From Clostridiales bacterium Firm_07 (GTDB lineage Bacteria; Bacillota; Clostridia; Oscillospirales; CAG-272), in NCBI GenBank assembly GCA_001604005.1, contig LVAM01000019.1, forward strand, positions 1-64,000: 64,000 nucleotides of DNA, given 5' to 3'. Positions 28,662 through 35,993 of this stretch are shown here, in pieces. Within the stretch, counting starts at the first letter, position 1, and each line of letters begins with the position of its first letter. The translations under genes were made by a program, and so were the position numbers. The notes below the pieces were generated by a model. It searched no databases and was not told the origin of the DNA. It was given only the letters and a program-made list of their open reading frames with translations.

Positions 28662-29496
28662 CGGAAAGGCGATCGCCGCCGAGATACGGCGTGAGATCGC
28701 GGAAAAAACCAAAGAATTGGCGGAGAAAAACGGTTTTGTACCGGGTCTTGCCGTGGTAATGGTGGGAGATGATCCCGCCTCCGCCGTATACGTGCGCAAC
28801 AAGCATCGCGCGTGCGCGGAAGTCGGCTTTTTGTCCAAAGGATTTGAACTGCCCGCGGAAACGAGCGAGGAAGAATTGCTCTCTCTCATCAAGACGCTCA
28901 ACGAAGATTCCGCAATACACGGAATACTGGTGCAGTTGCCCTTGCCGCGTCATATTGACGAAAAGAAAATTTTGCTTGCCATAGATCCGAAAAAAGACGT
29001 TGACGCTTTTCACCCATTTAACGTCGGCAGGGTGTTGACGGGCGATTATGATTTCGTGCCTTGCACGCCCGCCGGCGTGATGGAACTTCTGCGACGCAGT
29101 CACATAGACGTCGACGGCAAAAACTGCGTTGTGGTGGGACGCTCCAACATCGTGGGTAAACCGCAGGCGCTTTTGCTGCTTGAAGCTAACGGAACGGTGA
29201 CGGTCTGCCATAGCCACACGAGGGATCTCGCCCGCGTTTGCCGCCGTGCCGATATTTTGGTGGCAAGTATCGGAAAACCCGAATTTTTCGACGAGACTTA
29301 CATCAAAAAAGGCGCGGTCGTCATCGACGTCGGCATCAACCGACGCGCGGACGGAAAACTCTGCGGCGACGTTGCGTTTGACCGCGTTTTCCCGAAAGTT
29401 TCCGCCATCACGCCGGTGCCCGGAGGCGTCGGACCGATGACGATCGCCATGCTGTTGAAAAACACGTTTACCGCCGCGGAGCGGAGTCTTCAATAA
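28645..29496 (+). CDS. folD: Bifunctional methylene-THF dehydrogenase / cyclohydrolase
   Basis: A 283-aa enzyme interconverting 5,10-methylene-THF, methenyl-THF and 10-formyl-THF. It shows YVRNK (catalytic Tyr and Lys), QLPLPRHI, DVDAFHP, the NADP-binding GRSNIVGKP, and the end motif TPVPGGVGPMT. The ATG at 28645 follows AAAGGAGAC inside the lgt end; the 54 upstream in-frame residues are lgt in another frame. It is the last gene of the mrp operon, followed by a terminator. Confidence 0.95.
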   Translation: MATIIDGKAIAAEIRREIAEKTKELAEKNGFVPGLAVVMVGDDPASAVYVRNKHRACAEVGFLSKGFELPAETSEEELLSLIKTLNEDSAIHGILVQLPLPRHIDEKKILLAIDPKKDVDAFHPFNVGRVLTGDYDFVPCTPAGVMELLRRSHIDVDGKNCVVVGRSNIVGKPQALLLLEANGTVTVCHSHTRDLARVCRRADILVASIGKPEFFDETYIKKGAVVIDVGINRRADGKLCGDVAFDRVFPKVSAITPVPGGVGPMTIAMLLKNTFTAAERSLQ

Positions 29497-29497
29497 T

Positions 29498-29535
29498 CGA
29501 AAACGGACGCATACATGCGTCCGTTTTCGCGTTTT
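29498..29535 (+). terminator. Terminator after folD
   Basis: CGAAAACGGACGCAT (29498-29512) pairs with 29515-29529, with T runs in and after the descending arm. It begins two bases after the folD stop. Confidence 0.75.
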
Positions 29536-29561
29536 AGCACTTTTTTCCGCCTGTTCCTTTT

Positions 29562-29591
29562 GAATAAGCGCCGCCTTCTCTCGACAATACT
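29562..29591 (+). promoter_or_regulatory. Possible forespore-type promoter of sigG
   Basis: GAATA (29562-29566), an 18-base spacer and CAATACT (29585-29591) resemble the G-H-A-T-R / CAT-rich pattern of SigF/SigG promoters. The -10 match is imperfect and no good sigma-A promoter is seen between the folD terminator and the ATG. Confidence 0.3.
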
Positions 29592-29618
29592 GTTTTTGAG
29601 AAAAAACAGGGGGCGGCA

Positions 29619-30389
29619 ATGTACAATAAAGTTGAGATCTGCGGCGTTGACACTTCCAAACTGACGGTGCTTGACGACGCGGAGAAGAAAGAACTTTTAC
29701 TGCGTGTCAAGGCGGGAGACAGCGCGGCGCGCGAAAAACTGATCTGCGGCAATTTGCGACTGGTTTTGAGCATTATTCAACGCTTTTCGGGACGCAAAGA
29801 AAACGTGGACGATCTTTTTCAGGTCGGCTGTATCGGGCTCATCAAAGCGGTGGATCATTTCAACGTCGATCTTGACGTAAAATTTTCCACCTATGCCGTG
29901 CCGATGATCGTGGGCGAGATCCGACGTTATCTGCGGGACAACAATTCCATCAGGATCAGCCGTTCCACGCGGGACCTCGCCTATCGCGCCTTGCAGGCGC
30001 GCGAGGAACTCTGCCGCGAAAAAGAGCGCGAACCGAATGCCGACGAGATCGCGGGCAAACTCGGAGAGGACCGCGAGAGCGTGGTGCGCGCGATGGAAGC
30101 GATTGTCGAGCCGATCTCGCTTTACGAGCCGGTTTACAGCGAAAACGGGGACTCCATTTATGTGATGGATCAGTTGAGCGACACCTCGTCGGGGGACGAG
30201 CATTGGCTGGAAAACATCGCGCTTGCCGACGCGATGAAAAAACTCGGAGAGCGCGAGCGTATGATCATCGAAATGCGCTTTTATCGAAACAAAACGCAAA
30301 TGGAGATCGCGGAGAGCATCGGCATTTCGCAGGCACAGGTGTCACGCCTTGAAAAAGGCGCGCTGAAACGAATGCGCGGTCAGATATAA
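29619..30389 (+). CDS. sigG: RNA polymerase sporulation sigma factor SigG
   Basis: A 256-aa sigma-70 family factor that drives late forespore genes. The N terminus NKVEICGVDTSKL is the hallmark of SigG. Region 2 has DDLFQVGCIGLIKAVDHF and KFSTYAVPMIVGEIRRYL; region 3 follows; region 4 has the helix-turn-helix GISQAQVSRLEKGALKRM near the C terminus. Length matches the family. In Bacillus and many clostridia sigG sits after spoIIGA-sigE; here it stands alone between folD and a terminator. A GGGGGCGG ribosome site precedes the ATG. Its presence is the strongest sign that the organism makes endospores. Confidence 0.93.
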   Translation: MYNKVEICGVDTSKLTVLDDAEKKELLLRVKAGDSAAREKLICGNLRLVLSIIQRFSGRKENVDDLFQVGCIGLIKAVDHFNVDLDVKFSTYAVPMIVGEIRRYLRDNNSIRISRSTRDLAYRALQAREELCREKEREPNADEIAGKLGEDRESVVRAMEAIVEPISLYEPVYSENGDSIYVMDQLSDTSSGDEHWLENIALADAMKKLGERERMIIEMRFYRNKTQMEIAESIGISQAQVSRLEKGALKRMRGQI

Positions 30390-30421
30390 AAACGCGCAGA
30401 GGTTTTCCTCTGCGCGTTTTT
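30389..30421. terminator. Bidirectional terminator between sigG and the Crp/ABC operon
   Basis: A 14-bp stem (30389-30402 with 30407-30420, loop TTTT) with A and T ends serves both converging units. It overlaps the last base of the sigG stop and the stop of the ATPase gene. Confidence 0.85.
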
Positions 30422-31026
30422 CACGCGTTTTCCGACAAATCAAAAACGGGAGATCCCGTGAGATACAAAACTTTTGCGCCAAGGCGCACGGCGTCCTCTT
30501 TGTCGTGCGTAACGAGCAAAACGAGGCGACCTTCCGCGAGCGCCTTGATTCTTGGAAAAAGCCGCGCTTTCAGTGCGTCGTCCAAGGCAGAGAAGGGTTC
30601 GTCAAGAAGAAAAAGGTCGCCGTCAAAGGCAAGTGCGCGCGCAAGCGCCGCGCGCTGTTTCATACCGCCCGAAAGTGCCCCCGGCAGGATATCCCGTGCG
30701 TCCGAGAGCTCGGCATCGGAAAGAGCCTTTAAGGTTTTTTCTTCCCGCGCGGGATCGTCTTTCAGCACCAGTTCCACGTTCTTTTCCACCGAAAAAAACG
30801 GGAGCAGGCGCGGTTCTTGAAAAACGACCGATATTTTTTCGGCGTCGGTGAGCACTTTTCCGCCGCTCGGCTTTTCAAGCCCCGCAATGAGGCGAAAAAG
30901 CGTCGTTTTCCCACACCCCGAAGGACCCGACAGCGCGACGATGCCTTTTTCGGGAAAGCGGAAAGAAAGATGCGAGACGACTTGCTTTTTGCCGTAAGAA
31001 AAGGAAAGATCGGAGAATTCAAGCAT
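30421..31026 (-). CDS. ABC importer ATPase (nitrate/sulfonate/taurine class)
   Basis: A compact 201-aa ATPase with Walker A GPSGCGKTT, Q-loop FQEPRLLPF, signature LSGGMKQR, Walker B LFLLDEPF with the catalytic Glu, D-loop SALDD and H-loop THD. The FQEPRLLPW-like Q-loop is typical of SsuB/TauB/NrtD-type import ATPases. It is shorter than the usual 240-260 aa because it lacks the C-terminal extension. The ATG at 31026 overlaps the permease stop and follows AGGAGG. It is the last gene of the four-gene operon. Confidence 0.9.
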   Translation of the reverse strand: MLEFSDLSFSYGKKQVVSHLSFRFPEKGIVALSGPSGCGKTTLFRLIAGLEKPSGGKVLTDAEKISVVFQEPRLLPFFSVEKNVELVLKDDPAREEKTLKALSDAELSDARDILPGALSGGMKQRAALARALAFDGDLFLLDEPFSALDDALKARLFPRIKALAEGRLVLLVTHDKEDAVRLGAKVLYLTGSPVFDLSENA

Positions 31027-31783
31027 TGTTTTTCCTCCTTTTTTCCGTGGACAAAAGGCGCGTCGCGCCCCATTCGATCAGCACGCTGATAAGGATCACG
31101 GCAAGCGTCAGAGCGAAAAGACGATCGGTTTCAAGATAGAGATTGGCGTTAAAGATCTCCCGCCCGATCGAGCCCGTGGGCACGCAAAGCACTTCCGCCG
31201 CAATGCCGGCTTTCCAGGCAAGCGAGAGCGCCGAGCGCAGTGCGGCGAGAAAATAGGGGAGAAGCGCGTGCAAATAGATCGTTCGCACTTTGGTGAAAAA
31301 CGAAAAATCGAAAACCCGCGCCATTTCAAGCAGTTGACGGTCCACGCCGGAGAGTCCCTCTTTTACGTTGGCAAACACGATGGGCGTCGCCATCATAAAG
31401 GCAATCACGGGCGGCACTTTGTCGCGCCCGAGATAGAGGAGCATCAAGAAAATGATCGAGGCGACGGGCGTCGCTTTCATCAACGCGAGAAGCGGCGAGA
31501 AAAGCGTGTCGACGACCGTGCTTTTGTAGGCGAGCACGGCAAGCAGCGTGCCGCAAAGAAGCGCCGCGAGGATCCCCAGCAAGATACGGAAGATCGAGCG
31601 AAAGACGACCTTCCAGAAAACGCCGGTCAGCGCCATTTCGCCGAGCGTGCGGCAGACGGCAAGCGGCGAGGGGAGAATGAGCGGCTTGCCGTAACGAAAC
31701 GCCGCGAACGCCCATACCCCCACCCAAAAAGCAAGGGAGAGGAGCGCGAGCGCGGCGCGCGGAAGTCGCGCGGCGCGGTTCAT
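31019..31783 (-). CDS. ABC importer permease (nitrate/sulfonate/taurine class)
   Basis: A 254-aa BPD-type permease with about six membrane helices. The EAA-type loop is recognisable around ARVFDFSFFTKVRTIYLHALLP, where the ATPase docks. The start chosen is the ATG at 31783, which overlaps the stop of the binding-protein gene as ATGA; a longer in-frame reading would run deep into that gene. Its neighbours are the ATPase downstream and the binding lipoprotein upstream. Confidence 0.88.
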   Translation of the reverse strand: MNRAARLPRAALALLSLAFWVGVWAFAAFRYGKPLILPSPLAVCRTLGEMALTGVFWKVVFRSIFRILLGILAALLCGTLLAVLAYKSTVVDTLFSPLLALMKATPVASIIFLMLLYLGRDKVPPVIAFMMATPIVFANVKEGLSGVDRQLLEMARVFDFSFFTKVRTIYLHALLPYFLAALRSALSLAWKAGIAAEVLCVPTGSIGREIFNANLYLETDRLFALTLAVILISVLIEWGATRLLSTEKRRKNNA

Positions 31784-32790
31784 TGTACCGTCACGCCGGC
31801 TTTTTTGAATAACGCCGACAAAATGAACGCAGGATTTTGCGCGGGGCAATAGAGCGTTTTGCCGTTAAGATCGGCTATTTTCAGATTTTCCGCGCCGTTG
31901 GTGGTCACAAGGTAGAGTACGCTACCCGTATTGACGGCAAGGACTTTTACGCCGCCGCTTGTTTTGTTATAGACGGTTGCCGCCGCGTTGGTGGGGAGCG
32001 CACCGATGTCGATACTGCCGTTGATCAGCCCTTTGACAATATTGGTGGCCTCGGTCTCCACCGTAAAATCGTAATTCAGCGTCGCCGTGCCGGCGCTTTT
32101 GTCGTTCATTAGTTTCGCCATGCCGAAACCGGTCGTTCCGTTGAGCGTGGCAACGCGCACCGCCGGGGCGCCGTCGGGCGTCCCGCCGTTATTGCCGAGA
32201 AAATAAAAGTCGTCGCCGGGCAAACTTCCGCCGAGCGAATCCAAGGGCATTTCGGCAAAGAATTCAGCAAGCCCCGTTTTCATTTCCGCGCCGGATAGGA
32301 AAAGCAGATTGCATTTCGGGATCGCTTTTTCCGCGACGGCCGCTTTTTCAAAAATACCGTTTTCGGCGATCATCTGCGCGGCCTCATGCGGATTTTCCTT
32401 GACGAAATTCACCGATGCGGCGTACTCCTGCATAAAAGCGGCGACTTCGGCGGGGTGCTCTTCGAGAAACGCGGTGCGCACGACCACGCAGCCCTGCAAA
32501 AGAGAGTTTTTGCCGAAATATTCCTGCCAAACGGCGCCGATATCCATTGCCACCTTGACGTTGCCGTTTTGCGAAGCGGCGATGGTGACCATCGGCTCCG
32601 GAAGAACGGCGTATTCCACCAAATTTTCAGAGACCGCCGTGCGCAGAGCCGCCGGCGCGGCAAATTTGGTGCTGTCCAGCGTCAGGGTGACGGGCGTCAC
32701 TTCGGGCGCCGGTTCTTCGGTTTTCTTTTTACAGGAAACGAGCGCAAAAAGAAGCAGGAACGCGAGGAACAAAGAAAGCAGTTTTTTCAT
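31780..32790 (-). CDS. ABC substrate-binding lipoprotein, apparently circularly permuted
   Basis: A 336-aa NMT1-like solute-binding lipoprotein with signal peptide and lipobox LVSC (Cys20). The domain order is unusual. Residues 33-200 (AVLPEPMVT, CVVVRTAFLEEHP, CNLLFLSGAEMK, GGSLPGDDFYF) are what normally forms the C-terminal half. Residues 209-336 (VRVATLNGTTGFGMAKLM, IDIGALPTNAA, VKVLAVNTGSVLY, LNGKTLYCP) are what normally directly follows the lipobox. The old ends are joined by a short NNGGTPDGAP linker, and the new ends fall between GVTVQ and VTLTLDS. The reading frame is unbroken and no segment seems lost. The normal order is recalled from the family, not computed. It sits between the Crp regulator and the permease. 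The substrate is unknown. Confidence 0.85.
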   Translation of the reverse strand: MKKLLSLFLAFLLLFALVSCKKKTEEPAPEVTPVTLTLDSTKFAAPAALRTAVSENLVEYAVLPEPMVTIAASQNGNVKVAMDIGAVWQEYFGKNSLLQGCVVVRTAFLEEHPAEVAAFMQEYAASVNFVKENPHEAAQMIAENGIFEKAAVAEKAIPKCNLLFLSGAEMKTGLAEFFAEMPLDSLGGSLPGDDFYFLGNNGGTPDGAPAVRVATLNGTTGFGMAKLMNDKSAGTATLNYDFTVETEATNIVKGLINGSIDIGALPTNAAATVYNKTSGGVKVLAVNTGSVLYLVTTNGAENLKIADLNGKTLYCPAQNPAFILSALFKKAGVTVQ

Positions 32791-32809
32791 CGTAGTTTAC
32801 CTCCGAGTA

Positions 32810-33496
32810 TCAAAATATCCGCGAAGCGGAATTTTCAGTATATTTTTCGGCGAGCGCCGCGCGGTCAAGAATGTGAATTTTTCTGCCCTCCCGCGCGATG
32901 AGCCCTTCCGCGGCAAAAAGATCAAGCGCGCGATAAAGCGACGCGCGCGCGATGCCGAGCGCGTCCGAAAGCGAGGAGACCGAGTGCGGCAAAGAGAGCG
33001 TATTCTCTTTTTCCGAGAGCAGGTAAAGCGCCAGCTTCTTTTCGGCGCTGCCCGCCGTAAAGCAGAGTATCTTTCGGTTGAGAAACGCCACGCGACCCGC
33101 CAAGAGAGAAAGATACGCCGCGAGAAAGGCGGTGTCTTTCGTGAGAAGCGTGAAGATCGCCTCTTTTGAAAAGAGGCAGAGCAAAACATCCTCTTTTGCG
33201 ACAAGCGCCGTTTCGGGCAACTCTTCTTTGCAGAAAACCGATGCCGCGCCAAACACCGCGAGGGGCGAGAGCGTGCGCAGGATAACGGGCTTTTCGGCGC
33301 TTGACGAAACGATTTCGGCGCGCCCCGCAAGCAACACCGAGACGTTGCGGCAAGGTTCTCTCGCGGGCGCGCTTTTTTTCGTGAGCGCAAGAAGCGAACA
33401 CCCCTCGCTTTCGACAAGTTCACGCAAATGTTCTTTTGCGGCAAGCGAAAACGGGGAGATCGTCGATAAGACGGGCAGCAGTTCCGATTTTGTCAA
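32810..33496 (-). CDS. Crp/Fnr-family transcription regulator, TTG start
   Basis: A 228-aa regulator. The N-terminal part is a cyclic-nucleotide-binding-like beta-roll (VSVLLAGRAEIV, LSPLAVFGAASVF), then a long dimer helix (about 135-160), then a C-terminal winged helix (LSDALGIARASLYRALDLFAAEGLI). The start is a TTG at 33496, seven bases after AGGAGGG. Longer in-frame readings would extend upstream through the promoter and operator. Residues for cAMP or an Fe-S cluster are not evident, so the ligand is unknown. It is the first gene of the operon with the binding protein, permease and ATPase. A perfect palindrome lies over its transcription start, which suggests it represses its own operon. 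Confidence 0.85.
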   Translation of the reverse strand: MTKSELLPVLSTISPFSLAAKEHLRELVESEGCSLLALTKKSAPAREPCRNVSVLLAGRAEIVSSSAEKPVILRTLSPLAVFGAASVFCKEELPETALVAKEDVLLCLFSKEAIFTLLTKDTAFLAAYLSLLAGRVAFLNRKILCFTAGSAEKKLALYLLSEKENTLSLPHSVSSLSDALGIARASLYRALDLFAAEGLIAREGRKIHILDRAALAEKYTENSASRIF

Positions 33497-33503
33497 TGTG
33501 ACG

Positions 33504-33510
33504 CCCTCCT
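33504..33510 (-). promoter_or_regulatory. Ribosome site fixing the TTG start of the Crp-like gene
   Basis: Minus-strand AGGAGGG, 7 bases upstream of TTG and directly abutting the operator. No ATG or GTG lies at a usable distance from it. Confidence 0.75.
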
Positions 33511-33528
33511 TTGTCTCAAATGAGACAA
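33511..33528 (-). promoter_or_regulatory. Palindromic operator of the Crp/ABC operon
   Basis: TTGTCTCA-AA-TGAGACAA is a perfect 8-bp inverted repeat with a 2-base centre. It starts 4 bases after the -10 box and covers the predicted transcription start, where a bound regulator would block initiation. The Crp-like product encoded next to it is the obvious candidate; this is inference. Confidence 0.75.
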
Positions 33529-33532
33529 TTAC

Positions 33533-33561
33533 AGTATATAACTCCATCAACATTTTGTCAA
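33533..33561 (-). promoter_or_regulatory. Sigma-A promoter of the Crp/ABC operon
   Basis: Minus-strand TTGACA (33556-33561) and TATACT (33533-33538) with a 17-base spacer. Confidence 0.8.
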
Positions 33562-33622
33562 GAGAACGGCGAAAAAAACCGCTCTCTTTTTGTAAATAAA
33601 CCGTAAACAATCCGAAATCCTT

Positions 33623-33651
33623 TTGCGGCGAAGAAACCAAGCGTTTATAAT
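33623..33651 (+). promoter_or_regulatory. Sigma-A promoter of galM
   Basis: TTGCGG (33623-33628) and TATAAT (33646-33651) with a 17-base spacer, 24 bases before the ATG. Confidence 0.6.
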
Positions 33652-33675
33652 GAAAGAAAAAACGAAGGAGACGCT

Positions 33676-34737
33676 ATGTCGATCACAAAAAGAGTTTTCG
33701 GTACCCTCTCGGACGGGACGACGGTCTACCGCTACACGATGCAGAACAAAAACGCGATGACGGTTTCGGTGATGGAATACGGCGCCGCAGTGACAGAGGT
33801 GATCGTGCCGGACAGAAACGGCGTTTTTGCCGACGTCGCGGGAGGCTTTGACGATCCGAAATACTATGAAAAAGACGAAAGTTACATGGGCTCGATCGTG
33901 GGGCGTTTCGCCAACAGGATCAAGGGCGCGGTCTTTATGCTCGACGGCGTCCGGTATCACGTTTCCGCAAACGCCGGCAACGACCTGATGCACGGCGGCT
34001 TTCGCGGCTTTACGTTCAGAATGTGGGATATCACTCCGCGGGACGGAGAAGAACCCGCTCTCGTTTGCCGCTGTTTTTCGCCCGACGGCGAGGAAGGTTT
34101 TCCGGGCAATATGCAAGTAGAGGTGACGTATACGCTTTGCAACGACAATACGCTTTCCGTTGCCTATCGTGCCGTTTCGGATAAAAAGACCGTCATCAAT
34201 CTCACCAACCATTCCTATTTCAATCTCGGCGGCTTCGGAGCGGGCGATATTTTTGATCACGAACTGTGGGTGGACGCCGACACGTATCTGCCGCTCACGC
34301 CCGCGCTCGTTCCGACGGGTGAGATCCTTCCCGTGGCGGGCACGCCTTTCGATTTCACAACGCCCAAGACTATCGGGCGGGATTATGTGAACGATCACCC
34401 GCATTTTGCCGTGATGGGCGGGTACGACGTTACGCTCAACTTCGTCGGCGGCAAGCAGAAAACGCCGGTTTTGCGCGCCGTCGCGTATCACCCCGCATCG
34501 GGCAGAGAACTGCGGATCTTTACCGACCAACCTTGCGTGCAGCTTTATACCGCCAACGATTTTTATGCGGCGGAGCGCCCGATGAAAGGTGGCGTCCCAC
34601 AGCACACCCAAGCGATTTTTTGCCTCGAAACGCAAGGAATGCCAGACGATATGGACCGTCCCGATTTCCGTTCTCCCGTGATAGACGCGGGCGAGGAGTT
34701 TTTCAGCGTTACCGAGTTTTCTTTCGGTATCCGATGA
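33676..34737 (+). CDS. galM: Aldose 1-epimerase (galactose mutarotase)
   Basis: A 353-aa cytoplasmic beta-sandwich enzyme that interconverts alpha and beta anomers of galactose and glucose. It shows VGRFANRI, DLMHGGFRGF with a catalytic His, NLTNHSYFNLGG with the second His, and FCLETQGMPD with the catalytic Glu near the C terminus. Length is normal. Good GGAG site before the ATG. It is monocistronic, with its own promoter and terminator, diverging from the Crp operon. Together with the GH4 enzyme at 44619 it points to use of galactosides or related sugars. Confidence 0.93.
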   Translation: MSITKRVFGTLSDGTTVYRYTMQNKNAMTVSVMEYGAAVTEVIVPDRNGVFADVAGGFDDPKYYEKDESYMGSIVGRFANRIKGAVFMLDGVRYHVSANAGNDLMHGGFRGFTFRMWDITPRDGEEPALVCRCFSPDGEEGFPGNMQVEVTYTLCNDNTLSVAYRAVSDKKTVINLTNHSYFNLGGFGAGDIFDHELWVDADTYLPLTPALVPTGEILPVAGTPFDFTTPKTIGRDYVNDHPHFAVMGGYDVTLNFVGGKQKTPVLRAVAYHPASGRELRIFTDQPCVQLYTANDFYAAERPMKGGVPQHTQAIFCLETQGMPDDMDRPDFRSPVIDAGEEFFSVTEFSFGIR

Positions 34738-34740
34738 GAC

Positions 34741-34776
34741 GAGCGTGTGCGATTTCGCACACGCTCTCATTTTTTT
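34741..34776 (+). terminator. Terminator after galM
   Basis: GAGCGTGTGCG pairs with CGCACACGCTC (34741-34751 with 34756-34766), followed by seven T at 34770-34776. Confidence 0.88.
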
Positions 34777-34811
34777 CTTTTCGCCCTCATAGAGTAAACG
34801 GGGGTGATACG

Positions 34812-35993
34812 ATGAAAACTTACATAAGACGCGGCGTTATTTTCATTCTTATCTGCGCCGTTCTCTTTGCGCTGCCCGTGGGGGCGGAGAGCGCCGAAAA
34901 AGAAACCGAAACGATCGCGGGGGAAGCGACAAGCCTTGATCTTCCGTGCCGCGCGGCAATCCTGATGGACGCCGCAACGGGGACGGTTCTTTATGAGCAA
35001 AATGCCGACGAGCCTTTGCCGCCCGCCTCGGTGACAAAGGTGATGACGCTGCTTCTCGTGATAGAGGCGGTGGACAGCGGCAAGATCGCGCTCACCGATT
35101 CCGTTTCGGTCAGCGCGCACGCGGCATCGATGGGCGGTTCGCAGGTATATCTCAAAGAGGGAGAAACGATGCCGGTCGAGGAGATGATCAAGTGCGTGGT
35201 GATCGCTTCGGCAAACGACTGTGCCGTGGCGCTTGCCGAATTTGTCGCGGGCAGTGAAGAAGCTTTTGTCGCGGCGATGAACGCGCGCGCGGCGGAACTC
35301 GGTATGAAAAACACGCATTTCGAAAATACCAACGGGCTGGACGATACGGTGGAAAACCACCTGATTTCGGCGCGGGATATCGCAATTATGTCGCGCGCGC
35401 TCATCGCGCACCCGAAGATCTTTGAATACAGCGGCATCTGGATGGACAGCATCCGCGACGGCGCGTTCGGACTGACCAACACCAATCGTCTCGTGCGCTT
35501 CTACCGCGGATGCACGGGGCTGAAAACCGGTTCGACCTCCCGCGCCAAGTTTTGCATTACCGCTACCGCCGAACGCGACGGCGTGTCGCTCATCGCCGTC
35601 GTGATGGCGGCGGACACGCGGGATATTCGCAACGCCACGGCGGCAAAACTCCTTGATTACGGTTTTGCCGGCTTTGAGACCTACAAATCGGAGGGCGCCA
35701 CGCGCGTGGCACCGCTTACGGGCGGCACGAAGCGGACGATCCCCGTTTCTTTCGCTTCTTTCGCGGCGACCGTGAAAAAGGGCGAGGGGGCGAAAATCGT
35801 GCAGGAAGTACGCATAAAAGAAGATCTTTCCGCGCCGATCGCGGCAGGGGATACGGTGGGCGAGACCGTTTATCTTTTGAACGGCGAGGAGATCGGCAGA
35901 GTGCCGATCACGGCAGAGGAAAGCGTGGAAAAGATCGGTTTTCTCACTTTGTTTCGCCGTATGCTCGCGTCTTTTTTCCTGCTTTCCGCGTAA
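34812..35993 (+). CDS. dacF: D-Ala-D-Ala carboxypeptidase, DacF type (low-molecular-weight PBP)
   Basis: A 393-aa serine peptidase (family S11) that removes the terminal D-Ala of peptidoglycan side chains outside the membrane. Signal peptide at 1-25, then the active site SVTK near residue 75, SAND near 137 and KTGST near 237, followed by a C-terminal beta-rich domain and a hydrophobic end that could anchor it. The ATG at 34812 directly follows GGGGGTGATACG; earlier in-frame sequence runs back through the galM terminator. DacF and related enzymes often act in spore cortex formation; DacA-type housekeeping use is equally possible. Confidence 0.88.
   Translation: MKTYIRRGVIFILICAVLFALPVGAESAEKETETIAGEATSLDLPCRAAILMDAATGTVLYEQNADEPLPPASVTKVMTLLLVIEAVDSGKIALTDSVSVSAHAASMGGSQVYLKEGETMPVEEMIKCVVIASANDCAVALAEFVAGSEEAFVAAMNARAAELGMKNTHFENTNGLDDTVENHLISARDIAIMSRALIAHPKIFEYSGIWMDSIRDGAFGLTNTNRLVRFYRGCTGLKTGSTSRAKFCITATAERDGVSLIAVVMAADTRDIRNATAAKLLDYGFAGFETYKSEGATRVAPLTGGTKRTIPVSFASFAATVKKGEGAKIVQEVRIKEDLSAPIAAGDTVGETVYLLNGEEIGRVPITAEESVEKIGFLTLFRRMLASFFLLSA

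Follow-up and report, generated by a model that had tools for sequence, protein, structure and literature searches.

A natural circular permutation is generally encountered as an isolated difference between distantly related proteins. In the DNA methyltransferases, permutations have arisen several times. For these enzymes, the published account describes permutation by duplication with documented intermediates, and presents duplication, fusion and trimming as the classical route (PMC3320104). Among the binding proteins of ABC transporters, TpMglB-2 (Tp0684) of Treponema pallidum is described as a permuted protein of Type Ic / Cluster Bc, which still binds its ligand and has homologues in Gram-positive and gut bacteria (PMC4990184). 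Furthermore, OpuAC (2B4L) and glycine-betaine- and molybdate-binding proteins have been reported as a type II-like set whose members stand in a circular-permutation relation (PMC2395249).

The locus described here lies in a window of 64,000 nucleotides (contig LVAM01000019.1 of Clostridiales bacterium Firm_07), in which the open reading frame 31780-32790 on the minus strand encodes a substrate-binding lipoprotein of 336 aa with a predicted SsuA/NMT1-like fold, a component of an ABC importer which has a single permease gene beside it. Our main reading, to which we assign a probability of roughly 0.88, is that this lipoprotein gene was permuted in place in its operon, and that its orthologue was permuted repeatedly, at two loops, presumably via tandem duplication and trimming. 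Like the window protein, TpMglB-2 is a lipid-anchored, circularly permuted ABC binding protein, but it belongs to the type I fold class, its permuted part is described as poorly conserved, and it represents one related family which possibly spread sideways, whereas the window protein exemplifies repeated permutation of one orthologue (PMC4990184). The members of the OpuAC set were found by structure and share less than 24% identity between separate families, in contrast to the orthologues within one genus considered here (PMC2395249), and the DNA methyltransferases share the proposed duplication route but are enzymes (PMC3320104). Among the open-access papers listed by our searches, none was found to describe an orthologous binding protein that had been permuted more than once; permuted binding proteins as such are known already, and it is the repeated, in-place permutation of one orthologue which appears to be new.

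For comparison, the mature protein was cut into three segments, B (VRV..KKAG), A1 (VTLTLDS..LPEPMVTIA) and A2 (VKVAMDI..FYF), which follow one another as B-A1-A2 in the usual order and as A1-A2-B in the window protein; the third cyclic order, A2-B-A1, was also found, so that all three cyclic orders exist. The features of the locus are listed below, the lipobox having been identified by eye from the sequence.

32810..33640, minus strand: CRP/FNR-type regulator, upstream of the binding-protein gene (gene call and profile match)
31780..32790, minus strand: substrate-binding lipoprotein gene, 336 aa plus stop, order A1-A2-B, the permuted form P1
32731..32790, minus strand: signal peptide and lipobox, residues 1-20, Cys20, N-terminal place retained (sequence)
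32692..32730, minus strand: post-lipobox linker, residues 21-33 (sequence)
32575..32691, minus strand: segment A1, residues 34-72, VTLTLDS..LPEPMVTIAA, the middle segment of the usual relatives
32200..32559, minus strand: segment A2, residues 78-197, VKVAMDI..GDDFYF, the C-terminal segment of the usual relatives
32161..32199, minus strand: joining linker, residues 198-210, LGNNGGTPDGAPA, the junction of the old C- and N-termini
31795..32160, minus strand: segment B, residues 211-332, VRVATLN..LFKKAG, the N-terminal segment of the usual relatives
31780..31794, minus strand: new C-terminus VTVQ and stop, the stop codon overlapping the permease start codon as ATGA (31783-31780)
31019..31783, minus strand: ABC permease, PF00528, next gene of the operon (profile match)
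30421..31026, minus strand: ABC ATPase, PF00005 (profile match)

The operon is flanked by genes which we take to be aldose epimerase-like (33676-34737) and sigma factor-like (29619-30389), and homologues of both also flank it in several genomes of genera g1, the window's own, and g33. No Rfam match to a riboswitch that would name the substrate was found in 29000-35000, and a search for a second copy of the gene in the window's genome turned up no more than two weak matches, both confined to the N-terminal 31-45 residues.

An earlier, sequence-only reading had described swapped blocks behind the lipobox Cys20, and the motifs it quoted do occur in that order in the 336-aa translation. Its statement that relatives carry the blocks in the opposite order was borne out by the first relatives fetched with both blocks (41 loci, some of them the same gene fetched twice), in which B precedes A in 37 loci and A precedes B in four, namely the window's own locus and three relatives. 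These three carry A2-B-A1, cut after LPEPKVTV, and the order of the window protein is not shared by its closest relatives. Aligned separately with the 37 unpermuted loci, the two halves compare well, at 36-56% identity for block A, where the lowest values are 36% (L044) and 43%, and at 43-65% for block B. Segment mapping recovered all of B, A1 and A2 in rotated form, with no segment missing, and the new termini lie between GVTVQ and VTLTLDS, as had been proposed. Family profiles are likewise matched in swapped order: residues 45-155 and 74-152 correspond to positions 138-241 of 290 in TIGR01728 and 150-224 of 252 in PF02621, and residues 241-334 and 245-316 to positions 32-132 of 242 in PF12974 and 34-106 of 300 in TIGR01729. 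These matches are mostly weak, PF02621 being the only one of the four above its curated cut-off (27.6 bits against 26); PF09084 also exceeds its own (24.6 against 20.5 bits), each of the two over part of the profile, and TIGR01728, at 51.5, stays below 163.5. The setting is that of an NMT1/SsuA-like binding protein, with a lipobox-bearing signal peptide and with permease and ATPase alongside, and the position of signal peptide and lipobox is the same in the permuted and unpermuted relatives compared. Segment order and alignments thus support the natural circular permutation, signal peptide kept in front, which the sequence-only reading had put forward; what it missed is that the permutation is repeated, including a second cut position in other genera.

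The predicted structures agree with the rotation. AlphaFold models were obtained at pLDDT 93 and pTM 0.85 for the window protein, a model which partly reflects the choice of input because its alignment was built from block fragments, and at pLDDT 89 and pTM 0.83 for the unpermuted congener L033. Without its signal helix, the L033 model has 26 secondary-structure elements (12 in B, 4 in A1, 10 in A2), and when the models are compared by element order all 26 of 26 correspond after rotation. In the window model the old termini are joined by the linker and the new termini lie in a loop; the new C-terminus ends in one extra short strand, whose VTV duplicates the beginning of the strand that is retained at the new N-terminus as well. 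Foldseek searches with L033 matched 1165 PDB chains at E<=1e-3, the best being 3hn0 (chain A; TM-score 0.69/0.83). Among the matches listed, the closest solved structures of L033 are 3hn0 (BDI_1369), SsuA, TauA and Thi5/NMT1-like proteins, all in the usual order. MglB is absent from the best 50 of the 1165 matches, where SsuA/TauA/Thi5-like and similar proteins, which we take to be of the type II class, stand instead. A type I, MglB-like fold (Type Ic / Cluster Bc) was accordingly rejected, the listed matches of L033 being SsuA/TauA/Thi5-like. The permuted model itself matched 8 PDB chains at E<=1e-3, of which the best is OpuAC (3chg_D), from the circular-permutation set introduced above (PMC2395249); a close structural match to OpuAC was also rejected, the TM-score being 0.35/0.43 only.

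Permuted genes were then counted across genera, with gene order taken from the fetched loci and, for the remainder, by eye from the order of two separate matches. Among 194 genomes of seven genera (each species represented by a single assembly, in many cases a fragmented one), 129 gave a match and 16 of these are permuted: 1/16 matched genomes in g1, 1/2 in g19, 3/48 in g23, 2/17 in g28, 3/23 in g29, 1/5 in g32 and 5/18 in g33. The order is A1-A2-B in two permuted genomes (G000 and G265) and A2-B-A1, with the cut after LPEPxVT, in 14. All 16 gave one match each at the cut-offs used, and two of the 129 matched genomes hold a partial gene only (G247 and G201; the contig of the latter covers just the signal peptide and the beginning of B). 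The permutation of G032 (A2-B-A1) is common to four more g33 species at 60-73% identity over full length, and residues invariant in eight A2-B-A1 proteins include LPEPKVTV, PTN and QGC. A family-wide sample of 395 genomes gave 11 permuted genomes among 231 with a match. Outside the GTDB family, no permuted gene was found among the matches listed in a search of the order (203 of 394 genomes with a match) or of the class (96 of 391), counted without single-match genomes (2 and 14, respectively), and of 23 loci from other families 22 have B-A1-A2 and one has B-A2 with A1 unrecognised.

Several individual loci merit mention. The second carrier of the window's cut, L088 1282-2286 (G265), belongs to a different genus; its segment A1 has diverged strongly, scoring 28 bits at best, and the start of its downstream permease is the last base of the binding-protein stop codon. 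The g28 species L144 (G399) and L145 (G318) are both A2-B-A1, about 70% identical, and paired in the tree. In L185 (G184 contig C125, 4443 bases; g40) the binding protein is identical to that of G217 (g33) over the tree alignment, and this contig is probably misbinned.

The number of origins was assessed by trees of the binding protein (SBP trees), which were computed on rotated sequences and are unrooted by outgroup, such that changes of order may be gains or losses. The first SBP tree (89 rows) needs nine order changes, all nine forced by well-supported branches; with two further g29 genes (91 rows) it needs 11, of which at least 10 are forced, eight for A2-B-A1 and two for A1-A2-B. In AU tests a single clade was rejected for A2-B-A1 (its 12 rows in the first tree, p 1.7e-44) and for A1-A2-B (two rows, p 1.3e-62), as well as for the A2-B-A1 pair of g23 (p 0.0024), which was picked after viewing the tree. 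The g33 permutants form one SBP clade with modest support (92/49), and the three g29 permutants are separate. Two of the latter, G814 and G819, are similar around the joins, and we therefore put the number of events at about nine, not eleven. In the permease tree, which has 88 rows, 11 changes are again needed, at least 10 of them forced, with unsettled bootstrap values; the G250 permease sits on a long branch and the g33 permutants fall in three places. Since the usual order prevails elsewhere, we favour gains over losses. By these sequence comparisons, the same orthologue appears to have been permuted about nine times in one bacterial family, at two cut loops only.

The operon context is shared by permuted and unpermuted genes. 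Among 14 permuted loci compared, the regulator and the permease are alongside in 14/14 each and the ATPase in 12/14, the exceptions being G347, where the contig ends, and G125; two further g29 permuted loci have all three genes. The corresponding numbers for 76 unpermuted loci are 66, 76 and 75, and in g33 the outer neighbours also agree between loci. In G125 a gene that we take to be metF-like follows the permease where the ATPase would be, and no ATPase was found beside the permease in either g19 locus, L137 (G125) or L153 (G081). In six unpermuted g1 loci (L008, L049, L051, L053, L055 and L056) no CRP-type regulator was found upstream, and an epimerase-like gene stands there. Of five permuted pairs, three gave dN/dS ratios of 0.07, 0.06 and 0.12 and two were saturated; of seven unpermuted pairs, six gave 0.06-0.16 and one was saturated. 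These values are rough because dS is near or above 1. The permuted proteins apparently retain their function, and decay of the permuted gene is disfavoured by the low dN/dS and the retained regulator and permease neighbours.

The recurrence of permutants, the kept operon slot and the low dN/dS together make misassembly a poor explanation, as they do decay. That a misjoined contig conceals a true gene in the usual order would fit the single occurrence of cut P1 in the window's genus; against this stand the intact frame with its signal peptide, the 13-residue linker, the ATGA overlap with the permease, the recurrence of the other permutation in five g33 species and in the paired g28 species, and the presence of the window's own cut in another genus (G265), and we regard such an artefact as extremely improbable. 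Hardly more probable is a single ancient permutation which was inherited or transferred sideways and later reverted. The GTPD found in the A2-B linkers of both G125 and the window, and the recurrence of the second cut in six genera, could be taken in its favour, but permuted genes group with unpermuted congeners in the SBP trees, one clade is rejected for each order, and the permease tree, with its rough bootstrap values, scatters the permutants too. Moreover, two different cuts exist, and a return to the usual order would demand this complex rearrangement over and over again.

For repeated permutation in place, the route we propose would begin with an in-frame tandem duplication, which would fuse the C-terminus of copy one to the post-lipobox linker of the next copy; redundant sequence would then be lost at either end, at the front just behind the signal peptide. 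Both cuts would fall where loops tolerate changes of length, so that the fold with its two closing lobes would be kept, as would delivery to the permease, and judging by the fold the lipid anchor would sit in the second lobe and no longer in the first. Ranked by length variation among 75 unpermuted sequences, the cut loops come second and third of all stretches, in agreement with the reported general preference of circular permutation for loops (PMC3281007). Joining linkers measure 12-15 residues in 14 permutants, and the sequences of linker and ends are compatible with a tandem duplication that lost both its ends. Within g33, most joining linkers have a second half which resembles the post-lipobox linkers of unpermuted congeners (KADSALE vs KPDSELE); the likeness is poorer for G032 and for permutants outside g33, and it may be structural. 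A search for direct repeats at the junctions in the window found none, the only repeat detected being an imperfect one of 18 nt inside block B, unrelated to the junctions.

A segment moved by cut and paste within the gene, or fission followed by re-fusion, would yield end products like those of duplication, and no tandem-duplicated intermediate was found among 239 SBP frames (repeat fetches included), nor any locus with two frames. Both the g33 linker likeness and the VTV/VTL strand remnant carried at the two ends of the window protein are expected if copies overlapped and so count against these routes, which we judge unlikely, if clearly less so than the two explanations weighed above. As to why duplication and trimming should recur, the permutants may be tolerated accidents of neutral drift, in which order is irrelevant and has no selective value. 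The scattered distribution, the mostly shallow clades and the position of the cuts in length-variable loops fit this account, to which we give slightly less than an even chance. About nine or more events in one family, against none among the matches listed elsewhere in the order and class, are unevenly distributed for drift, but denser within-genus sampling here and mutation rates could explain this as well. More tentatively still, and with the odds somewhat against it, the gene might be a permutation hotspot, with recurrent duplication and trimming through all three orders driven by something in the gene itself or by selection in favour of a membrane anchor on the other lobe.

In this family, permuted and unpermuted orthologues which are up to about 70% identical share the same operon slot within one genus. 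Such congeneric natural pairs, together with some nine events, make the duplication-fusion-trimming route, the choice of cut sites and the effects of permutation on folding and transport directly testable.
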